Source: an uncultured Verrucomicrobiota bacterium (lineage in GTDB: Bacteria > Verrucomicrobiota > Verrucomicrobiae > Opitutales > Opitutaceae). From it: a stretch of 15,136 nt of DNA. Location: the NCBI GenBank assembly GCA_946481225.1, contig CAMLNJ010000014.1, positions 1-15,136 on the forward strand, given 5' to 3'. Each line of letters opens with the position of its first letter. Position 1 is the stretch's first letter. Under the pieces are notes generated by a model that had not been told where the DNA came from, made no database searches, and saw nothing but the letters and a program-made list of their open reading frames with translations. A program made the translations under genes and the position numbers. Shown here piece after piece: positions 5,122-12,990 of this stretch.

Positions 5122-6288
5122 ATGCTCAATTCGTTCCATCCCCGCCCCCACCGGCTGCTCGCCTCTTTCATTACCGTCGCCGCCACCCACCTCGCGCAGG
5201 CCGAGGACAGCGTCACCGTGAAGGCCCAGTCCTGGCAGGAGGACGACAAGCGCGTCCGCGTCGATTCCCAATACGCGCTCCTCCAGACCGACCTCACCAC
5301 CGAGACCCGTCTCAAGATCATGGGCCTCGTCGACACCATCACCGGCGCCACCCCGACCGGTGAAAAATCCGCCGCGCCCGGCGCCCCCGTCCCGCTCTCC
5401 GAGATGGACGACCGGCGCGAGGCCTGGGACGCGAACCTCGCCTACCAGTTCCCCCGCGTGAACGTCTCCGCGGGCTGCGGCGTCAGCCGCGAAAGCGACT
5501 ACGTCTCCCACGGCTACGCGCTCAACACGCTCACCGACTTCAACCAGAAGAACACCCTGCTGCTCGTCGGCTGGGGCCACGCCGACGACCGCGTCGTGGA
5601 GCGCTTCTGGTCCGCCGACCGCGAAAAGACCGGCGACGACTTCATCGTCGGCATCACCCAGCTACTCTCCCCCGTCCTCTCCGTCACCGCCAACCTCTCC
5701 TGCGGCCGCGCCACCGGCTTCCTCGCCGACCCCTACAAGATCGTATCCACCACCCGCCTCGATCTCGATCCCGGCACCTACTACACGGTCCCGGAAAATC
5801 GCCCGGACGAAAAGGACAAGGTCTCGCTCTTCCTCGGCGCCGTCCGGCATTTCGATCCGGTCGACGGCGCGATCGACGCCTCGTATCGATTTTATCACGA
5901 CAGCTTCGGGATCGACGCCCACACCGTCGACCTGAAATGGGTGCAGCGCCTCGGCCCCCGCTGGATGCTCGAGCCCTCGGTCCGGTTCCACCACCAGTCC
6001 GCCGCGGACTTCTACCACGCCGACCTCGACGCCGACGGGGTCGTCGTCTCCCTCGATCCATCCCTCGAGACCGGCACCGCCCGCGTCCCCTACTACTCCT
6101 CCGACTACCGTCTATCGAGGATGGAGACCACGACCCTGGGGCTCAAGGCCGCCTACGCGCTCAACGACCACGTCTCCATCGACTTCGCCTACGAGCGCTA
6201 CCTCATGCGCGGGCTCGACGACGCCACGCCCCGGGGCGCCTACGCGGACGCCGACGTCTTCACCGTCGGCATGAAGTTCAGCCGCTGA
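5122..6288 (+). CDS. DUF3570 outer-membrane beta-barrel protein with candidate flavinylation motif
   Basis: A 388-residue protein. It has a signal peptide (residues 1-27, likely cleavage after AQA27) and a body of alternating polar/hydrophobic strands rich in Asp, Tyr and aromatic residues, ending FTVGMKFSR as outer-membrane barrels often do. Features of DUF3570 are the N-terminal RVRVDSQYALLQTDLTTETRLKI-type opening (about 44-66, abbreviated), the conserved LVDTITGATPTG (69-80) and repeated strand patterns such as YRFYHDSFGIDAHT. DTITGAT (71-77) fits D-x-x-[ST]-G-A-[ST], the motif to which ApbE attaches FMN, with T77 as the would-be acceptor; that is an inference. The gene starts a four-gene operon, 11 bp ahead of the apbE-like gene. 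ATG 5122 is chosen because it opens the signal peptide. The upstream triple repeat suggests control by a PhoB-type regulator. DUF3570 has no established function that I know of. Confidence 0.85.
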   Translation: MLNSFHPRPHRLLASFITVAATHLAQAEDSVTVKAQSWQEDDKRVRVDSQYALLQTDLTTETRLKIMGLVDTITGATPTGEKSAAPGAPVPLSEMDDRREAWDANLAYQFPRVNVSAGCGVSRESDYVSHGYALNTLTDFNQKNTLLLVGWGHADDRVVERFWSADREKTGDDFIVGITQLLSPVLSVTANLSCGRATGFLADPYKIVSTTRLDLDPGTYYTVPENRPDEKDKVSLFLGAVRHFDPVDGAIDASYRFYHDSFGIDAHTVDLKWVQRLGPRWMLEPSVRFHHQSAADFYHADLDADGVVVSLDPSLETGTARVPYYSSDYRLSRMETTTLGLKAAYALNDHVSIDFAYERYLMRGLDDATPRGAYADADVFTVGMKFSR

Positions 6289-6299
6289 TCCTTCCCGCC

Positions 6300-7298
6300 A
6301 TGAGCGCCCGCGTTCCCGACGCCTCGTCTCCGCCCGCCGCGCCCGCATCCGCGCCGGACGCGAGCGCGGGCGCGCCGCTGCGCCGGCGCCGCTGGTCCGC
6401 CCTCGGCACCGCCTGCGAGATCCAATACGCCTGCGACGACGAGACCCGCGCCCGCGCCTTCGAGACCGAGGCCCTCGCCTGGGTGGAAAACTTCGAGGCC
6501 CGCTACTCGCGCTTCCGCCCGGACAGCCTCGTCAGCCGGATCAACGACGCCGCCGGCGGCGACTGGGTCGACGTCGACGAGGAGATGGACGCCCTTCTGA
6601 GTTTCTGCGCCTCGCTGCACTTCCTCACCCGCGGCGTGGTCGACGTCACCGCCGCCCCCCTCCTCCGTCTCTGGAACTACAAGTCCGCCGCGCCGCGCAT
6701 CCCCTCGTCCTCGGAGATCGACGCCGCCCTTCGCCTCGTCGGCTGGGGAAAAGTCCGGCGCGAGTCCGGCCGCGTGCGCCTGCCGGAGCGAGGCATGGCC
6801 CTGGACTTCGGCGGCTGGGGCAAGGAATACGCCGTCGACGCCGTGGCCGCCCTCGCCCGCGCCCACGGCATCACGCGCGCCCTGGTCGACTTCGGCCACG
6901 ACATCATGGCCGTCGGCGCCGCCCCCGGAAAACCCGGCTGGCACATCGGCCTCGAAGATCCCGACGCGCCCTCCGGCCCCTGTCGCGGCAGCCTCGCCGC
7001 CGTCGACGTCGGCGTCGCCACCTCCGGCGACTACCTCCGCGGCTTCACCGTGGACGGAAAACGCTACGGACACATCGTCGACCCGCGCAGCGGCCACCCC
7101 GTCGCCAACGGCTGCCGACAGGTCACCGTCGTCGCGCCGAATTGCCTCATTGCCGGCGCCCTCTCCACCGCCCTCTTCGTCCTCGGGCCCGAGGACGGCC
7201 TCCGCCTCGCCGGCGAAATCATGGGCGCCGAGGCCCGCATCCTCGCCGACCGCGCCCTGCACCAAACCCGCGGCTTTTTTCGTTATGTCGTTTCCTAG
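6300..7298 (+). CDS. apbE: ApbE-like FAD:protein FMN transferase, divergent
   Basis: A 332-residue protein. ApbE enzymes use FAD and Mg2+ to transfer FMN to Thr/Ser of exported proteins. Family landmarks are present: the N-terminal LGTACEIQY (35-43), F-x-x-R-Y-S-R-F (65-72), TRGVVDVTAAPLLRLW (110-125), LDFGGWGKEYAVD (168-180), SGDY (242-245), YGHIVDPRSGHPV (256-268) and AGALSTALFVLG (285-296). Several positions differ from typical ApbE: the usual DA-L-[SA]-T has Gly at 286 instead of the metal-binding Asp, G-K-G is GKE (174-176), and the usual N-x-G-G-D is DFGHD (197-201). No clear signal peptide follows ATG 6300; a Pro/Ala-rich leader of about 28 residues precedes the domain, so localisation is unclear. 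It is 11 bp after the DUF3570 gene and overlaps the thioredoxin gene by 14 bp, which points to the barrel protein as its likely target. Confidence 0.87.
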   Translation: MSARVPDASSPPAAPASAPDASAGAPLRRRRWSALGTACEIQYACDDETRARAFETEALAWVENFEARYSRFRPDSLVSRINDAAGGDWVDVDEEMDALLSFCASLHFLTRGVVDVTAAPLLRLWNYKSAAPRIPSSSEIDAALRLVGWGKVRRESGRVRLPERGMALDFGGWGKEYAVDAVAALARAHGITRALVDFGHDIMAVGAAPGKPGWHIGLEDPDAPSGPCRGSLAAVDVGVATSGDYLRGFTVDGKRYGHIVDPRSGHPVANGCRQVTVVAPNCLIAGALSTALFVLGPEDGLRLAGEIMGAEARILADRALHQTRGFFRYVVS

Positions 7299-7788
7299 CC
7301 TTCCCGTCCTCCGCTACCTCCTCGCCCTCTGCGCCACCGCCCTCCTCGCCTCCGCCGGGGTGAAGGTCGGCGAACCCTTTCCCTCGCTCGCCGACCAAGG
7401 CCTCGAAGGCGCGCCGCCCGCGCTCGCCGGACGCGTCGCCCTGATCGACTTCTGGGCCACCTGGTGCGCCCCCTGCAAAGTCTCCTTCCCGCACTACGAC
7501 GCCCTGCAGACCGAGCTCGGACCGCGCGGCTTCACCGTCGTGGCCGTCAGCGTCGACAAGACCCCCAAGGCCTACGCCGACTTCGTGAAACGCCACGCCC
7601 CGGGCTTCGTCACCCTGCGCGACGCCGGCCAGAAGCTCGTCGCCGCCGTCGCCCCGCCCGCCATGCCCACCTGCTACCTACTCGACCGCAAAGGGGTGCT
7701 GCGCTTCGTCCACGCGGGCTTCCACGGCGAGGACGACGTGAAACAACTCCGCGCCGAGATCGCCCGACTTCTGGAGGAAAAACCGTGA
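7285..7788 (+). CDS. TlpA-like secreted thioredoxin-fold protein
   Basis: A 167-residue protein. It has an N-terminal signal or anchor (about 8-24, RYLLALCATALLASAG), then a TlpA/ResA/AhpC-TSA type domain. The redox motif WATWCAPCK puts the active cysteines at C61 and C64, and the cis-proline is P128 in AMPTC (126-130). VAVSVDKTPKAYADF (87-101) has the usual peroxiredoxin-like spacing. Such proteins work in the periplasm or at the membrane as thiol reductants for specific clients, and are usually kept reduced by CcdA or DsbD proteins; a complete DsbD homologue lies 3 kb downstream. ATG 7285 overlaps the end of apbE by 14 bp, which suggests translational coupling, and it opens directly onto the signal peptide. 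The likely client is within this operon, perhaps the cysteine-ending DUF4266 lipoprotein; that is an inference. Confidence 0.87.
   Translation: MSFPSLPVLRYLLALCATALLASAGVKVGEPFPSLADQGLEGAPPALAGRVALIDFWATWCAPCKVSFPHYDALQTELGPRGFTVVAVSVDKTPKAYADFVKRHAPGFVTLRDAGQKLVAAVAPPAMPTCYLLDRKGVLRFVHAGFHGEDDVKQLRAEIARLLEEKP
7773..7780 (+). promoter_or_regulatory. Strong Shine-Dalgarno for the DUF4266 gene
   Basis: GGAGG at 7773-7777 followed by AAA lies 7 nt before GTG 7785, inside the last codons of the thioredoxin gene. It fixes the GTG start of the DUF4266 gene. It stands out because most other genes here have no Shine-Dalgarno sequence. Confidence 0.75.
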
Positions 7789-8036
7789 ACCCGTCCCGCC
7801 CCGCTTCGTCGCGCCTCGCCGCCCTTTCCCTGCTCGCGCTCGTCGCCCTCGGCGCCGGCTGCTCGTCCGGCAAGCTCGCCCGCGTCCAACCGTGGCAACG
7901 CGAGACGCTCGCCGGCCCCACCATGAACCCCGACCGCGACCCGCTCCGCTCCGCCATGAGCGAGCACATCTACTTCTCCCGGGAAGCCGCCTCCGGCGGC
8001 CGTGGCGTCGGCGGCAGCGGCTGCGGCTGCAACTAG
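7785..8036 (+). CDS. DUF4266 small lipoprotein ending in CGCN
   Basis: An 83-residue protein. It has a clear lipoprotein signal peptide: RLAALSLLALVALGAGC (10-26), with lipid cysteine C26. The mature part contains VQPWQRETLAGPTMNPDRDP (34-53), matching the DUF4266 pattern of a [WY]-x-R-E-x-LA-x-P-x-M segment. The C-terminus is Gly-rich and ends GGSGCGCN, leaving C80 and C82 as a CxC pair. GTG 7785 overlaps the thioredoxin stop codon (GTGA) and is preceded by a strong GGAGG. DUF4266 proteins have no function I can name. Being membrane-anchored, tiny and cysteine-ended next to a TlpA-like thioredoxin suggests a redox or metal-binding role that depends on reduced thiols. The length is normal and the gene appears intact. 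It is the last gene of the operon. Confidence 0.85.
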   Translation: MNPSRPASSRLAALSLLALVALGAGCSSGKLARVQPWQRETLAGPTMNPDRDPLRSAMSEHIYFSREAASGGRGVGGSGCGCN

Positions 8037-8040
8037 TGTA

Positions 8041-8100
8041 GTTAAAAAATAACGACATCTTCCCCTGCCGTGCCACGTGGCACGGGCGTCCCGTCCGTGC
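8041..8100. repeat. Compound hairpin repeat with two overlapping stems
   Basis: It begins with an A-rich GTTA...TAAC (8041-8053) just past the DUF4266 stop codon. At 8068-8085 is a perfect 18-bp palindrome, CCGTGCCACGTGGCACGG. Its right arm GCACGG (8080-8085) also starts a second hairpin, 8080-8100, with nine pairs (one G:U) and a 3-nt loop. The two stems cannot form together. Read on the minus strand, the element encodes HGRDARATWHG, a string I recall as a common translated repeat in Verrucomicrobia. It may act as the 3' end of the operon transcript, though a U tract is missing on the plus strand. Confidence 0.75.
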
Positions 8101-8192
8101 GCCTTGTAAACGTCGCGCCGGTTCTCGCGCGCCACACCAGCCCCGGCCCGCCCTTCCAAACACCCGTCCGATCCTCCCCTCCCCCGCCTCCC

Positions 8193-10715
8193 ATGCCCGT
8201 CTTCGCCCTCTTCCACCGCCTCCACTGGTTGCACCTGCCGGCCACCTTCCTCGTCCTCCTCCTGCAACGCACCCCCGTGCTGCGTCTCCTCGCCGCCGAC
8301 GGCCCCGGCTTCGCGCTCCGCTCCGCCGACCTCCTCAAGTCCGCCTTCGCCCTCGCCGCCCTCGGCGCCTACAATTCGGTCACCGGCGCGACGACCTTCA
8401 ACTCGAGCGCCGTCGCCCCCGCGACCGCCAGCCCCGCCTCCGCGCCCGCGCGCTCCACCGTCAAACTCGGCGCCGTCGCCGGATCCCCGTTCCAAGTCTC
8501 CTTCACCGTCAGCGGCGCCCCCGGTTTCGTCCAATCCTGGAAAGTCACCGGCCCCCTGCCCGCCGGCCTCGCCGTCTCCAGCAACGCGGGCGCCGCCACC
8601 CTGAACGGCGCAAGCTACGTGGTGAACGGCAACAAGCTCTTCCTGGCCGGCACCCCCTCCTCCGCCACCACCGCCAACCTCGTCGTCGCCGCCTATTCCA
8701 GCACCGGCGCGAAAGGCGACAACGCCTCCGTCACCTGCGCCCTCGCCATCTCCGGCCCCGCCGTGGACGCCGCCCCCGTTTTCACCTTGCAACCCCTCTC
8801 CCAAAGCGTCGTCGCCGGCGGCGGCGCGACCTTCACCGCCACCGTCGCCGGCAGCCCCGCCCCCGCCCTCCAATGGTATAAGGACGGCGACGCGCTCCCC
8901 GGAAAAACCGCCGCCACGCTCTCGTTGACCGGCGTCCAGCCCGCCGACGCCGGCGACTACGTCCTCGTCGCCACCAACTCCTCCGCGCCCGCCGGAGTCC
9001 CCTCCTCCACCGCCACGCTCACCGTCAACCACGCCCCCGCGTTCTCCGCCACCCCGACGTCTCGGACCGTCGCCCTCGGATCCTCCGTCACCTTCTCGGC
9101 CGCGGCCTCCGGCCACCCCGCGCCGACCTATGTCTGGAAAAAAGACGGCGTCCTCCTCGCCGGTCAAAACGGCCCCACGCTCACCCTCGACCCCGTCACC
9201 TTCGCCGCCGCCGGCCGCTACGTCGTCACCGCGATCAACTCCGTCTCCCCCGCCGGCGTCCCCGCGCCCGCCGCCACGCTCACGGTGCTCGTCCCCGCGC
9301 CCGCCGCCATCGTCGATCCCGGCACCCTCCGCACCGGGAGCCAGGTCGCGTGGGACCTCGCAGGCGGCGCCCCCGTCCCCGCCGGCCTCGTCTACAAAGC
9401 CGCCGGCCTGCCCGCCGGGCTCAAGCTCGACCCCGCCACCGGCTGCATCACCGGCGTCGTCACCGCCGCTCCCAAGACCTTCACCGTCACCACCTGGGCC
9501 CAGGCCGGAGCCATCAAGAGCGCCGTCAACACCGCCACGCTCGTGATCGGCGCCTTCCCCGCCGCGCTCGTCGGCTCCTACGAGGCTCTCCTCCACGCCG
9601 ACGACGAAGCCGCCTTCCCCGCCGGCAAGGTCTCGCTCAAGGTCGCCGCCAACGGCGCCTTCTCCGGCACGCTCCTCGCCGACGAGCGCGCCGCCTTCAC
9701 GCTCAAGGGCAGCCTCGCCCTCGCCGCCGACAACGCCTCCGGCTCCGCTTCGCTCACCCTCTCGCGCGGCAAGACGCTCCCCGCCTACCTCCTCGAGGTC
9801 TCCGCCTCGACCGCGGCGCCCGCCCTCTCCGCGACTCTCTCCCTCGGCGCCGCCCGCGTCGGTGTCTCCACCGACGGCGCCCGCATCCTCGCCGCCGCGC
9901 CCGTCGGGGCCGCCGGCCCCTACACCGTGCTCCTCGCCGCGCCGACCAACCTCGGCGCCGTGGCCGGCCACCCGCTCGGCGACGGCCACGCCACCGCCAC
10001 CATCTCCGCCAAGGGCATCCTCGCGCTCTCCGGTAAAAACGCCGACGGCACCAAACTCGCCGGCAGCTTCCCCCTCGGCGCCGATCACGCCTACCGAGTC
10101 TACGCCAAGCCCTACGCGCTCGTCGGCGGCTACCTCGCCGGCACGCTCCCGCTCTCGCCCCGCGCCGACGCCGCCACCCGCTGGCACGTCGCCCCCGCCG
10201 CCGGCTCGGACGTCTACTGGCGCAAACCCGACCCCGTCGCCGCGACCACCAACTACGCCGATGGCTTCGGCCCCCTCGCCCTCACCGTCCGCCTCGAACC
10301 CTGGACCAAGCTTTCCAAAACCACCACGCTCGCGCCGCTCCTCGGTCTCGCCGGCGCCTCCGGCGACCTCACCCTCGCCCTCGCCGCCACCGGCCTGGCC
10401 AACGACGACACCGATCTCTACGGCCTGCCGAAACAGCTCGCCCTCTCCGCCGCCAACACCTTCGCCGTCGTCGGCGACAACACCTCCGCCCGCTTCACCG
10501 CCAAAGTGAACCCCGCCACCGGCGCGCTCAGCGGCGGCTTCATGCTCAAGGCCATCCCGCCCGTCGCCAAACGCACCGTCGTCTGCTCGGGCGTCCTGCT
10601 CCAAGCCGCGCCCGCCGACCTCCCCGGCCTCGTCGGCGGCGGATTTTTCCTCCTTCCCGCCACCACCCCCGGCGGCCCCGTCCTCTCCGGAAAAGTCGAA
10701 CTCGCCACGCCCTGA
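8193..10715 (+). CDS. Large exported Ig-like repeat protein of an Opitutaceae type
   Basis: An 840-residue protein rich in Ala, Thr, Ser, Pro and Gly. The N-terminus (FHRLHWLHLPATFLVLLL, about 7-24, then QRTPVLRLLAA) and GAYNSVTGATTF (58-69) are, as I recall, shared by a large exported family in Opitutaceae. Next come a putative Ig-like segment (about 95-187), two cysteine-free I-set-like Ig domains (about 195-278 and 281-366, each with W-Y/K-K-D-G and the AG-x-Y strand) and a PAGL-x-LDP-TG-x-ITG segment (about 380-452) typical of He_PIG domains. The rest (about 457-840) holds two or three diverged copies of a beta-rich unit with G-x-F-SG-x-L. It probably acts at the cell surface or outside the cell in binding; no catalytic site is seen. 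ATG 8193 begins the conserved N-terminus; the frame upstream is repeat DNA. The same-direction operon ends 156 bp upstream, so it is probably transcribed separately. Confidence 0.8.
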   Translation: MPVFALFHRLHWLHLPATFLVLLLQRTPVLRLLAADGPGFALRSADLLKSAFALAALGAYNSVTGATTFNSSAVAPATASPASAPARSTVKLGAVAGSPFQVSFTVSGAPGFVQSWKVTGPLPAGLAVSSNAGAATLNGASYVVNGNKLFLAGTPSSATTANLVVAAYSSTGAKGDNASVTCALAISGPAVDAAPVFTLQPLSQSVVAGGGATFTATVAGSPAPALQWYKDGDALPGKTAATLSLTGVQPADAGDYVLVATNSSAPAGVPSSTATLTVNHAPAFSATPTSRTVALGSSVTFSAAASGHPAPTYVWKKDGVLLAGQNGPTLTLDPVTFAAAGRYVVTAINSVSPAGVPAPAATLTVLVPAPAAIVDPGTLRTGSQVAWDLAGGAPVPAGLVYKAAGLPAGLKLDPATGCITGVVTAAPKTFTVTTWAQAGAIKSAVNTATLVIGAFPAALVGSYEALLHADDEAAFPAGKVSLKVAANGAFSGTLLADERAAFTLKGSLALAADNASGSASLTLSRGKTLPAYLLEVSASTAAPALSATLSLGAARVGVSTDGARILAAAPVGAAGPYTVLLAAPTNLGAVAGHPLGDGHATATISAKGILALSGKNADGTKLAGSFPLGADHAYRVYAKPYALVGGYLAGTLPLSPRADAATRWHVAPAAGSDVYWRKPDPVAATTNYADGFGPLALTVRLEPWTKLSKTTTLAPLLGLAGASGDLTLALAATGLANDDTDLYGLPKQLALSAANTFAVVGDNTSARFTAKVNPATGALSGGFMLKAIPPVAKRTVVCSGVLLQAAPADLPGLVGGGFFLLPATTPGGPVLSGKVELATP

Positions 10716-10878: not shown

Positions 10879-12990
10879 ATGCTTGTCCGCGCCCTCCGCC
10901 TGCTCCTGCTCGTCGCCCTCGCCGCGCTTCCGCCCGCCCTGCACGCGCAGGTCAAAGCCTCGCTCCACGCGCTCAAATCGACCTTCCCCGCCGACTCGAC
11001 CGAAGTCGTCGTCGGCCTCCGCCTCCAGCACGAGCCCCACTGGCACACCTATTGGCTTCAGCCCGGCACCGGCCTGCCCACCAGCCTCGCCTGGCAACTC
11101 CCCCCCGGCTGGAACGCCGGCCCCATCCGCTGGCCCGCGCCGCATCGCGTCTACGACACCGCCAAGAACCTCGCCGGCAACGGCTACGAAGGCGTCGTGT
11201 TTCTTCCCGTCACGCTCACCCCGCCGCGCGACCTCGCGGCGGACAAGCCCGTGACCCTCCGCGCCAAGGCCGAGTGGCTCATGTGCAAGGACGTCTGCAT
11301 CCCCGGTTCCGCCGAAGTCAGCCTCACCCTCACGCCCACCGCCCCCGGCGCGATAACCACCGCCAACGTCACCGACTCGCCCGAGGGCGAGGCGCTCCTC
11401 GCCACGCTAGAGGCCCTGCCGAAGCCGCTCCCCGCAAGCTCGACCGCACGCGTCACCCGGCCCGACCCCGCCGCGAAGCGCCTTCAACTTCAGGTCTCAG
11501 GTCTCATCCCGCCGCCTTCCGGCGAACCATGGTATTTCGACGCCGACGCCGTCATCGCCTACGACAAGCCCCAGCCTCGCGCCGCCGACGCGCCCGCCGA
11601 CCGGATCGCGCTCGAACTCGCCGTCTCCGACTACGCCGAGCCCTTCCCCGCCCGCCTGCGCGGTTTGCTTACCTTTGCCGGCGGACCGGCCTACGAGCTC
11701 GATCTTCCCGTCGAAGCCGCCCCCGCCCGCGCCGCCGCTCCCTCGACCGGTAACGCCAAGGCCGCCGATGGAGCCTCCGCCGCCTCCCTCGCTGGCATCC
11801 TCGCCCTCGCCTTCGTCGGCGGCCTCATCCTCAACCTCATGCCCTGCGTCTTCCCCGTGCTCGGCCTGAAGGTCATGGGCTTCGTGCAACAGTCCGGACA
11901 CGACCGCAAAAAAATCACCGCGCACGGCTTGGTGTTCACCAGCGGCGTGCTCCTTTCCTTCTGGCTGCTCGCCGGCGTGCTCGCCGTCCTTCGCGCCGGC
12001 GGCTCCGAGCTGGGCTGGGGATTCCAGCTCCAGGAGCCCGGTTTCGTCTTCGCGATGGCGGTCGTGCTCCTCGCCTTCGCGCTCAACATGTCCGGCGCCT
12101 TCGAGTTCGGGCTCGGCGCCACCGCCGTCGGCGGCTCGCTCCAGCAAAAGCAGGGCTACGCCGGCTCCTTCTTCACCGGCGTGCTCGCCACCGTGGTCGC
12201 CACCCCTTGCAGCGCGCCCTTCCTCGCCCCCGCCCTCGGCGCCGCCCTCGCCCTGCCCACCGCCGCGAGCTTCGCCGTCTTCACCGCCGTCGCGCTCGGC
12301 CTCTCCACGCCCTACCTCGTGCTCGCCGCCTTCCCCGCCGCGATCCGCGTCCTGCCGCGCCCCGGCGCCTGGATGGAGACCTTCAAGCAAGGCATGGCCT
12401 TCCTCCTTTACGCCACGGTCGTCCTCCTCGTCTGGATTCTCGCCGGGCAACTCGGCGCCGACGCCCTGCTCTCCGCCCTCCTCGCCCTCGCCCTTCTCGC
12501 CTTCGCGCTCTGGCTCTACGGCCGCGCCACCGCGCCCGAGGCGCGCAAACCCCGTCGCAAAACCCTCGCCCTTTCGCTCCTCCTCGCCGCCGGCGCCCTC
12601 GTCTACGGTTGGCCCCGCGCGGCCGCGCCCGACGAGATCGTTTGGGAGCCTTGGAGCGCCGAGCGCGTCGCCGAGCTGCAAAAAGAAGGCCGCCCGATCT
12701 ACGTCGATTTCACCGCCCGCTGGTGCTTCACCTGCCAGACCAACAAAAAAGCCGTCTTCCACGGGCCGGGCTCAGGCGAGGTTCTAAAAACTTTCCGCGA
12801 CAAAAAAGTCGCCACTCTCCGCGGTGACTGGACCAACCGCGACCCGAAGATCACCGCCGAGCTCACGCGCTGGAAACGCGCCGCCGTGCCCTTCAACCTC
12901 GTCTACCTGCCCGGCCGCGCCGAACCGCAGGTGTTACCCGAACTTCTGACGCCGGGCACGGTTCTCGAGGCTCTTCGAGCCTCGCCTTGA
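10879..12990 (+). CDS. dsbD: DsbD family thiol:disulfide interchange protein
   Basis: A 703-residue protein that moves electrons from cytoplasmic thioredoxin across the inner membrane to periplasmic thiol proteins. All three modules are present. After a signal peptide (1-23), an N-terminal DsbD-alpha domain has cysteines C136 and C140 (MCKDVC). The membrane domain (about 303-580, roughly eight segments) has the paired cysteines C323 (NLMPCVFPVLG) and C444 (VATPCSAPF). A C-terminal thioredoxin domain has WCFTC (C616, C619) and its cis-proline near P671. The N-terminal domain and length resemble the larger ScsB-like members. ATG 10879 opens the signal peptide. It is the only complete candidate here to reduce the TlpA-like protein of the upstream operon. 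A stem CGAGGCT/AGCCTCG (12966-12984) sits at the end of the gene but lacks a T tract. All key cysteines are intact. Confidence 0.93.
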   Translation: MLVRALRLLLLVALAALPPALHAQVKASLHALKSTFPADSTEVVVGLRLQHEPHWHTYWLQPGTGLPTSLAWQLPPGWNAGPIRWPAPHRVYDTAKNLAGNGYEGVVFLPVTLTPPRDLAADKPVTLRAKAEWLMCKDVCIPGSAEVSLTLTPTAPGAITTANVTDSPEGEALLATLEALPKPLPASSTARVTRPDPAAKRLQLQVSGLIPPPSGEPWYFDADAVIAYDKPQPRAADAPADRIALELAVSDYAEPFPARLRGLLTFAGGPAYELDLPVEAAPARAAAPSTGNAKAADGASAASLAGILALAFVGGLILNLMPCVFPVLGLKVMGFVQQSGHDRKKITAHGLVFTSGVLLSFWLLAGVLAVLRAGGSELGWGFQLQEPGFVFAMAVVLLAFALNMSGAFEFGLGATAVGGSLQQKQGYAGSFFTGVLATVVATPCSAPFLAPALGAALALPTAASFAVFTAVALGLSTPYLVLAAFPAAIRVLPRPGAWMETFKQGMAFLLYATVVLLVWILAGQLGADALLSALLALALLAFALWLYGRATAPEARKPRRKTLALSLLLAAGALVYGWPRAAAPDEIVWEPWSAERVAELQKEGRPIYVDFTARWCFTCQTNKKAVFHGPGSGEVLKTFRDKKVATLRGDWTNRDPKITAELTRWKRAAVPFNLVYLPGRAEPQVLPELLTPGTVLEALRASP

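Follow-up and report, generated by a model that had tools for sequence, protein, structure and literature searches.

A divergent, apparently signal-less ApbE encoded beside a predicted barrel protein of the DUF3570 family suggests flavinylation before export

The ApbE-family protein encoded behind the DUF3570 gene in the window (the whole 15,136-nucleotide stretch of DNA analyzed here) has no visible export signal and carries an altered active site, in which glycine stands in place of the Mg-binding aspartate of canonical ApbEs and a glutamate is gained in a neighboring loop. On sequence grounds, the swapped active site and the absent signal together suggest that flavin is attached to the DUF3570 protein before export. 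In the specific form that we favor, Thr77 of DUF3570 would be flavinylated in the cytosol by this ApbE and the flavin would come to lie at the outer mouth of the barrel pore, a reading to which sequence comparison and structure modeling lead us to give an even chance. If the flavin is indeed attached before export and faces outward, the cell envelope could be flavinylated without periplasmic FAD, and electrons may have a way across the outer membrane that does not depend on haem. DUF3570 and DUF4266, a further member of the cluster, both carry the names of domains of unknown function.

Neither the flavinylation of DUF3570 by ApbE nor the gene cluster itself is new, both being already in print. 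According to Meheust et al. (2021, PMC8238504), the evidence is that the DUF3570 protein of Chlorobium luteolum (the ABB24424/ABB24423 pair) is flavinylated upon co-expression with its ApbE, that ApbE-associated DUF3570 proteins have two conserved [ST]GA[ST] motifs, and that loss of flavinylation in the C. luteolum protein needed serine changes at both sites. The same paper describes 285 DsbD clusters that typically hold ApbE, DUF3570 (227), a thioredoxin-like protein (183) and DUF4266 with a C-terminal CxC (221), as well as 316 further clusters without DsbD. Its main text contains neither “barrel” nor “cytosolic ApbE”, and “outer membrane” appears there once, in relation to TonB receptors. 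A 2024 structural paper (PMC11334425) models other flavinylated domains, and the name DUF3570 does not occur in its text as available. In the literature searched, DUF3570 and DUF4266 are each named in one paper only, PMC8238504, and a description of a swapped, signal-less ApbE or of an outward-facing flavin site was not found.

Results

Gene cluster

All five genes of the published cluster type (DUF3570, ApbE, thioredoxin, DUF4266 and DsbD) lie in the window (Table 1), which by its nearest homologues appears to come from an Opitutaceae-like verrucomicrobium. The suspicion voiced in the initial annotation, that ApbE, DUF3570 and DUF4266 form a recurring cluster, agrees with what PMC8238504 reports. 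The 11-bp spacing it gave also holds, the ApbE start lying 11 bp past the DUF3570 stop codon. The DUF3570 protein scores 233.8 bits against a PF12094 cut-off of 25, and this is its sole Pfam match at E 0.01; an FMN_bind domain of the NqrC/RnfG type is absent. The thioredoxin also matches the ResA model NF002854, with a score below that model's cut-off. With its co-encoded thioredoxin-like protein, CxC-bearing DUF4266 and DsbD, the window shares the members of the published DsbD-type flavinylation system, from which it differs in that a large Ig-domain gene (start chosen by eye within the open reading frame 8070–10715) separates DsbD from the rest and in that the thioredoxin matches Redoxin/AhpC-TSA rather than PF13899.

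Table 1. Features of the window discussed in the text.
Feature	Position	Strand	Remarks
DUF3570 protein, predicted 16-stranded outer-membrane beta-barrel	5122–6288	+	388 aa; PF12094, E 4e-69
DUF3570 likely signal peptide	5122–5202	+	residues 1–27; judged by eye
Flavinylation motif D71-T-I-T-G-A-T77	5332–5352	+	predicted extracellular end of strand 3 (62–78)
Putative acceptor Thr77 codon	5350–5352	+	within DTITGAT of DUF3570
ApbE-family protein, divergent E/G subclass	6300–7298	+	332 aa; PF02424, E 4e-75; no signal peptide seen
ApbE E176 codon	6825–6827	+	Glu vs. Gly of canonical ApbEs; GG-x-A-K-G becomes GGWGKE
ApbE G286 codon	7155–7157	+	Gly vs. Mg-binding Asp of canonical ApbEs
TlpA/ResA-like thioredoxin	7285–7788	+	hydrophobic N-terminus; CxxC (C61, C64); PF08534, E 4e-15
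DUF4266 lipoprotein	7785–8036	+	GTG start; PF14086, E 3e-22
Large exported Ig-like-domain protein	8193–10715	+	I-set/Ig_3 Pfam matches; between DUF4266 and DsbD
DsbD-like transmembrane thiol reductase	10879–12990	+	Pfam DsbD_N, DsbD_TM, Thioredoxin_7

Altered active site of the ApbE

The window ApbE belongs to the PF02424 family by profile and by fold, and the catalytic serine and histidine of the family (Ser257 and His273 of FmnB) are present as S242 and H258. The Mg ligands of FmnB are Asp301, Ser304 and Ala187, and Ala replacement greatly reduced or abolished activity (PMC8906456); the text of PMC4767422 gave no match for the names of metal ligands. By alignment and residue count, FmnB Asp301 corresponds to G286 of the window protein and Ala187 to G172, which means that the Mg-binding aspartate (Asp285 in V. 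cholerae) is a glycine here. Four residues past G172, E176 stands for a glycine kept in canonical ApbEs. Compared with canonical enzymes such as Listeria FmnB, Treponema Ftp and V. cholerae ApbE, the window protein thus has Gly for the Mg-binding Asp and Glu for the loop-1 Gly, and we file it by sequence as a divergent subclass rather than as a canonical ApbE. Classes are named here by residue 176/residue 286, with E/G denoting Glu/Gly and canonical denoting Gly/Asp.

The two positions go together. The window and the loci supply 219 distinct full ApbE cores, which divide into 129 with Gly/Asp, 82 with Glu/Gly and 8 with other pairs, and a Glu/Asp or Gly/Gly combination occurs in none of the 219. 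The 8 others comprise two Ala/His cores, one probably misaligned fragment and five cores that have Gly176 without either Asp286 or the gained glutamate, residue 286 being Glu in two of them and Ser, Thr and Asn in one each. Within the E/G class, D169, E176, D201, R247, S242, H258 and T290 are each found in 96/96 sequences (not deduplicated). Homologues of the window ApbE are Glu/Gly in 120/120 cases among the matches listed, as are 119/120 of those listed for the Vibrio ApbE, the exception (P0361) being a shorter protein that differs in this part; the named members of the latter set are proteobacterial and come from Vibrio, Shewanella, Photobacterium, Psychromonas, Moritella, Marinobacterium, an epsilonproteobacterium and a magnetococcal MAG. 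Cys39 of the ApbE is another residue with an uneven distribution (93/96 in the E/G class vs. 8/133 canonical ApbEs).

In the ApbE tree, the E/G proteins make up one side of a single branch (SH-aLRT 93, under the tool's mark of 95), and both residues therefore probably changed once, in a single evolutionary event. Since the class is a single branch, we argue for a moved Mg ligand from the position and fixation of the residues and not from repeated co-change. On these grounds Glu176, perhaps together with Asp201, appears to replace the canonical Asp as Mg ligand, which would make the E/G ApbEs a case of an acidic metal ligand apparently moved to the opposite loop within one enzyme family.

Absence of an export signal

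Most ApbEs are apparently secreted, and the cytosolic ones that are known and cited have intracellular targets, as in Klebsiella (PMC12052999). Canonical ApbEs usually, if not universally, have a signal peptide or lipobox, and neither is seen in the window ApbE, whose first 26 or so residues form neither strand nor helix (low pLDDT at 1–13) and include no hydrophobic segment. We applied a simple hydropathy rule (an 11-residue mean of at least 1.9 within the first 45 residues), which 98/120 DUF3570 proteins pass as a control. Two homologue searches gave a hydrophobic N-terminus in 1/120 and 2/119 E/G ApbEs, or 3/239 in all, and ApbEs taken from the loci gave 1/88 for the E/G class vs. 74/92 for the canonical class. 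The ApbEs linked to a second group of DUF3570 proteins, from Hymenobacter (L090) and a verrucomicrobial locus (L101), do have a hydrophobic N-terminus.

Conservation of the motif in DUF3570

The initial annotation placed DTITGAT at residues 71–77 of DUF3570 and took it for a possible site of flavinylation, and the sequence confirms the motif and its position; it fits D-x-x-[ST]-G-A-[ST], the definition given in PMC12052999. When the mature protein is shuffled 20,000 times, the strict pattern arises in 109 cases (about 0.5%), so that a chance origin is unlikely but not negligible, and conservation decides. D71, G75, T77 and G80 are each present in 120/120 aligned close homologues, A76 in 116/120 and P78 in 119/120. 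The window together with 80 loci gives 80 readable proteins out of 81 (L016 is cut), a set overlapping that of the 120 homologues, and in it D71, G75, T77, P78 and G80 are each 80/80 and A76 is 78/80. Position 74, the fourth of the motif, is far more variable: it is Ser or Thr in just 13/120 homologues and 30/80 locus proteins and usually Ala (Ala 106, Thr 9, Ser 4 and Val 1 among the 120), giving D-x-I-A-G-A-T-P-T-G as the usual sequence. Judged by the strict pattern, 107/120 homologues might be thought to have lost flavinylation; the alignment leads us to reject this, as mostly only the fourth residue differs.

The motif is N-x-I-S-G-A-[TS]-P in other verrucomicrobial DUF3570 proteins (L091–L093, L096, L098 and L099) and DTVSGAS in a Vibrio one, and across these and the window type the acceptor is always Thr or Ser, while positions 1 and 4 of the motif vary. 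In L100, L101 and Hymenobacter, which form a group apart, it is D-x-x-S-S-A-S. The window protein holds a single [ST]GA[ST] segment (TGAT, 74–77), and in this it departs from the published two-motif pattern. Four of the five proteins from L091, L092, L093, L098 and L099 (all but L098) bear a second KAGAT-P segment, a possible further flavin site, and the DUF3570 genes of L090:5129-6381 and G124 (L096) are broken up by stops or frame changes.

Association of DUF3570 with E/G ApbEs

Across the 80 loci, an ApbE lies downstream of DUF3570 in 71 (in five of which the ApbE extends past the contig end: L008, L011, L022, L052 and L080), the thioredoxin follows without an intervening ApbE in 6 (L007, L027, L038, L057, L073 and L077) and the contig is too short in 3 (L019, L020 and L069); an apparent absence in L039 and L055 is an artefact of long overlapping reading frames. 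The initial annotation had proposed to test whether the motif is invariant only where apbE is nearby; the acceptor Thr is fixed, the strict [ST]GA[ST] form varies, and all six loci without an intervening ApbE keep the motif. The genomes of these six encode a full ApbE elsewhere (E below 1e-116), always of the E/G type; in G147 (L239) and G151 (L241) it lies away from DUF3570, and the G152 copy sits some 2 kb upstream.

A scan of 145 Verrucomicrobiota genomes found DUF3570 in 13 and ApbE in 110. All 13 DUF3570-bearing genomes have an ApbE within 1.3 kb of DUF3570, and this neighbor is of the E/G type in 11/13 vs. 0/126 distinct non-adjacent ApbEs retrieved from the 145 genomes. The exceptions, G062 and G129, pair a Gly/Asp ApbE with a DUF3570 protein of the D-x-x-S-S-A-S group. 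Since the 80 loci, which come from one genome scan, are all titled Verrucomicrobia, Opitutae or their relatives, a single Vibrio cluster (three near-identical records) is the basis for linking E/G ApbE with DUF3570 outside Verrucomicrobiota. Plasmid searches for DUF3570 loci returned Vibrio and Hymenobacter only, and a viral scan for DUF3570 relatives found none. E/G ApbEs distant from any DUF3570 exist (L239, L241 and L244); the last, also seen as L007:540-1610 on the minus strand, is not directly beside DUF3570 and falls among the proteobacterial members of the clade. In L036 (7997-9785), a second ApbE, a thioredoxin and a short, weak DUF4266-like reading frame stand directly upstream of a complete DUF3570-ApbE-thioredoxin-DUF4266 set.

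Predicted position of Thr77

The structure model of the window DUF3570 protein is confident (pLDDT 92.6) and consists of a 16-stranded barrel with its long loops all on one side; the initial annotation had likewise called the protein an outer-membrane barrel. Exposure of T77 in the periplasm, which the initial annotation had proposed to look for in such a model, is not what the model suggests, as it places T77 where strand 3 meets the loop-rich side, predicted to be extracellular. Thirteen of the 14 invariant columns fall on the loop-rich side together with T77 (Fisher p 0.004), and five relatives (again L091, L092, L093, L098 and L099) have a long insertion rich in Pro, Ala, Ser and Thr in the loop directly behind the motif. 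Conservation favors the outer half just weakly when strand residues are compared (p 0.09; of the top 50 positions by conservation, 35 lie there, p 0.03), and we therefore base the outer-side topology on the loop insertions and the 14 invariant columns. By the model, Thr77 is predicted to face the cell surface.

DUF4266 and other partners

The window DUF4266 has a lipobox cysteine at position 26 (judged by eye) and a Gly-rich C-terminal tail with a final CGCN (C80 and C82). The CGCN ending is present in 69/69 DUF4266 relatives from the 80 loci, 68 of them with G-x-GCGC, and a simple pattern finds a lipobox in 55/69; two DUF4266 proteins of the other DUF3570 group end in CGCY and CGCF. A lipid-anchored protein with such a two-cysteine tail might serve to pass electrons from the thioredoxin on to the barrel. 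The DsbD-like reductase is the probable source of these electrons, a view to which gene order lends weak support. Within 1.4 kb downstream of DUF4266, 37/63 loci encode a protein with an LQRTP-type N-terminus, the window example being the Ig-domain protein. This protein has YNSVTGAT just after a hydrophobic stretch, which resembles a flavinylation motif; we considered it as a second ApbE target and set it aside, as the hydrophobic run and A-G-A in relatives make a signal-peptidase site more likely.

Discussion

In the mechanism that we propose, the E/G ApbE would attach FMN to Thr77 of the DUF3570 precursor in the cytosol, while the chain is unfolded and ahead of Sec export and outer-membrane insertion, with Mg bound through Glu176 (perhaps with Asp201). 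Two points make the cytosol the most likely place of attachment, namely that an export signal is not visible in the ApbE and that the model puts Thr77 at the predicted outer end of its strand; passage of the FMN-bearing chain through Sec is assumed. In the mature barrel, the FMN would then sit on the lumenal side of the pore's extracellular mouth, and electrons may run from DsbD by way of thioredoxin and the CxC tail of the lipoprotein DUF4266 to the FMN, and from there to an acceptor on the outside or in the lumen. The original idea of a flavinylated barrel is partly supported.

The compartment could be a different one, with the ApbE exported by an unrecognised route and Thr77 modified in the periplasm before BAM inserts the barrel. 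That ApbEs mostly seem to be secreted (PMC12052999) would fit, as would the hydrophobic N-termini of the ApbEs linked to the second DUF3570 group, but the scarcity of such N-termini among E/G ApbEs (3/239), the window protein included, makes this route unlikely in our estimation. Cytosolic ApbEs are, moreover, known. The ApbE of Klebsiella pneumoniae that acts on fumarate reductase resembles the window enzyme in having no signal peptide, although its target is a soluble intracellular enzyme and the candidate target here is exported and predicted to reside in the outer membrane (PMC12052999).

A more radical possibility is that the E/G proteins have no FMN transferase activity and act on DUF3570 in some other way, for example by FAD hydrolysis or as chaperones, with GATP-x-G being kept for the turn at the end of strand 3. 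The Mg-binding Asp, which is important for FmnB activity (PMC8906456), is Gly throughout the class, P78 and G80 lie outside the known motif and are conserved like T77, and the fourth motif residue is mostly Ala, all of which speak for this possibility. Against this, no member of the class departs from Ser242, His258, Thr290 or Asp169 and the neighboring loop has gained an acid, the acceptor Thr is fixed in both overlapping DUF3570 sets, and for one relative DUF3570 has been established as a substrate of ApbE (PMC8238504); we regard loss of activity as improbable to the same degree as periplasmic attachment. The C. luteolum pair is like the window in Pfam family, [ST]GA[ST]-type site, adjacent ApbE and the usual thioredoxin-like and DUF4266 neighbors, and differs in having two motifs with tested serine acceptors vs. 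one motif with Thr, a comparison made without regard to ApbE class. It might be supposed that the window holds an ordinary DUF3570 system, in which the differences of the ApbE are neutral family variation and the predicted topology is wrong or irrelevant. The cluster content is indeed that of Meheust et al. (2021, PMC8238504), but two active-site changes fixed jointly over a verrucomicrobial and proteobacterial clade, together with the absence of an export signal, are hard to call neutral, and we consider this explanation very unlikely.

Cytosolic flavinylation of Thr77 can be extended to the whole assembly. A relocated-ligand, cytosolic ApbE acting with DsbD, thioredoxin and the threaded, Gly-rich CxC tail of DUF4266 would make DUF3570 a “flavin porin”, that is, a haem-free, thiol-driven conduit of the outer membrane. 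We regard this fuller picture as doubtful and have lowered our estimate slightly because DsbD is found near DUF3570, inside the examined flanks, in just 4/80 loci (L001, L003, L004 and L057). Porin-cytochrome and Cyc2-type conduits have a haem cofactor within or at an outer-membrane barrel. Likened by description only, they share with the proposed system the combination of redox cofactor and barrel, with haem in the one case and putatively FMN in the other. A flavin-reductase-like gene (PF01613) is also present in the window at 2250–2903, on the opposite (minus) strand and 2.2 kb from the cluster.
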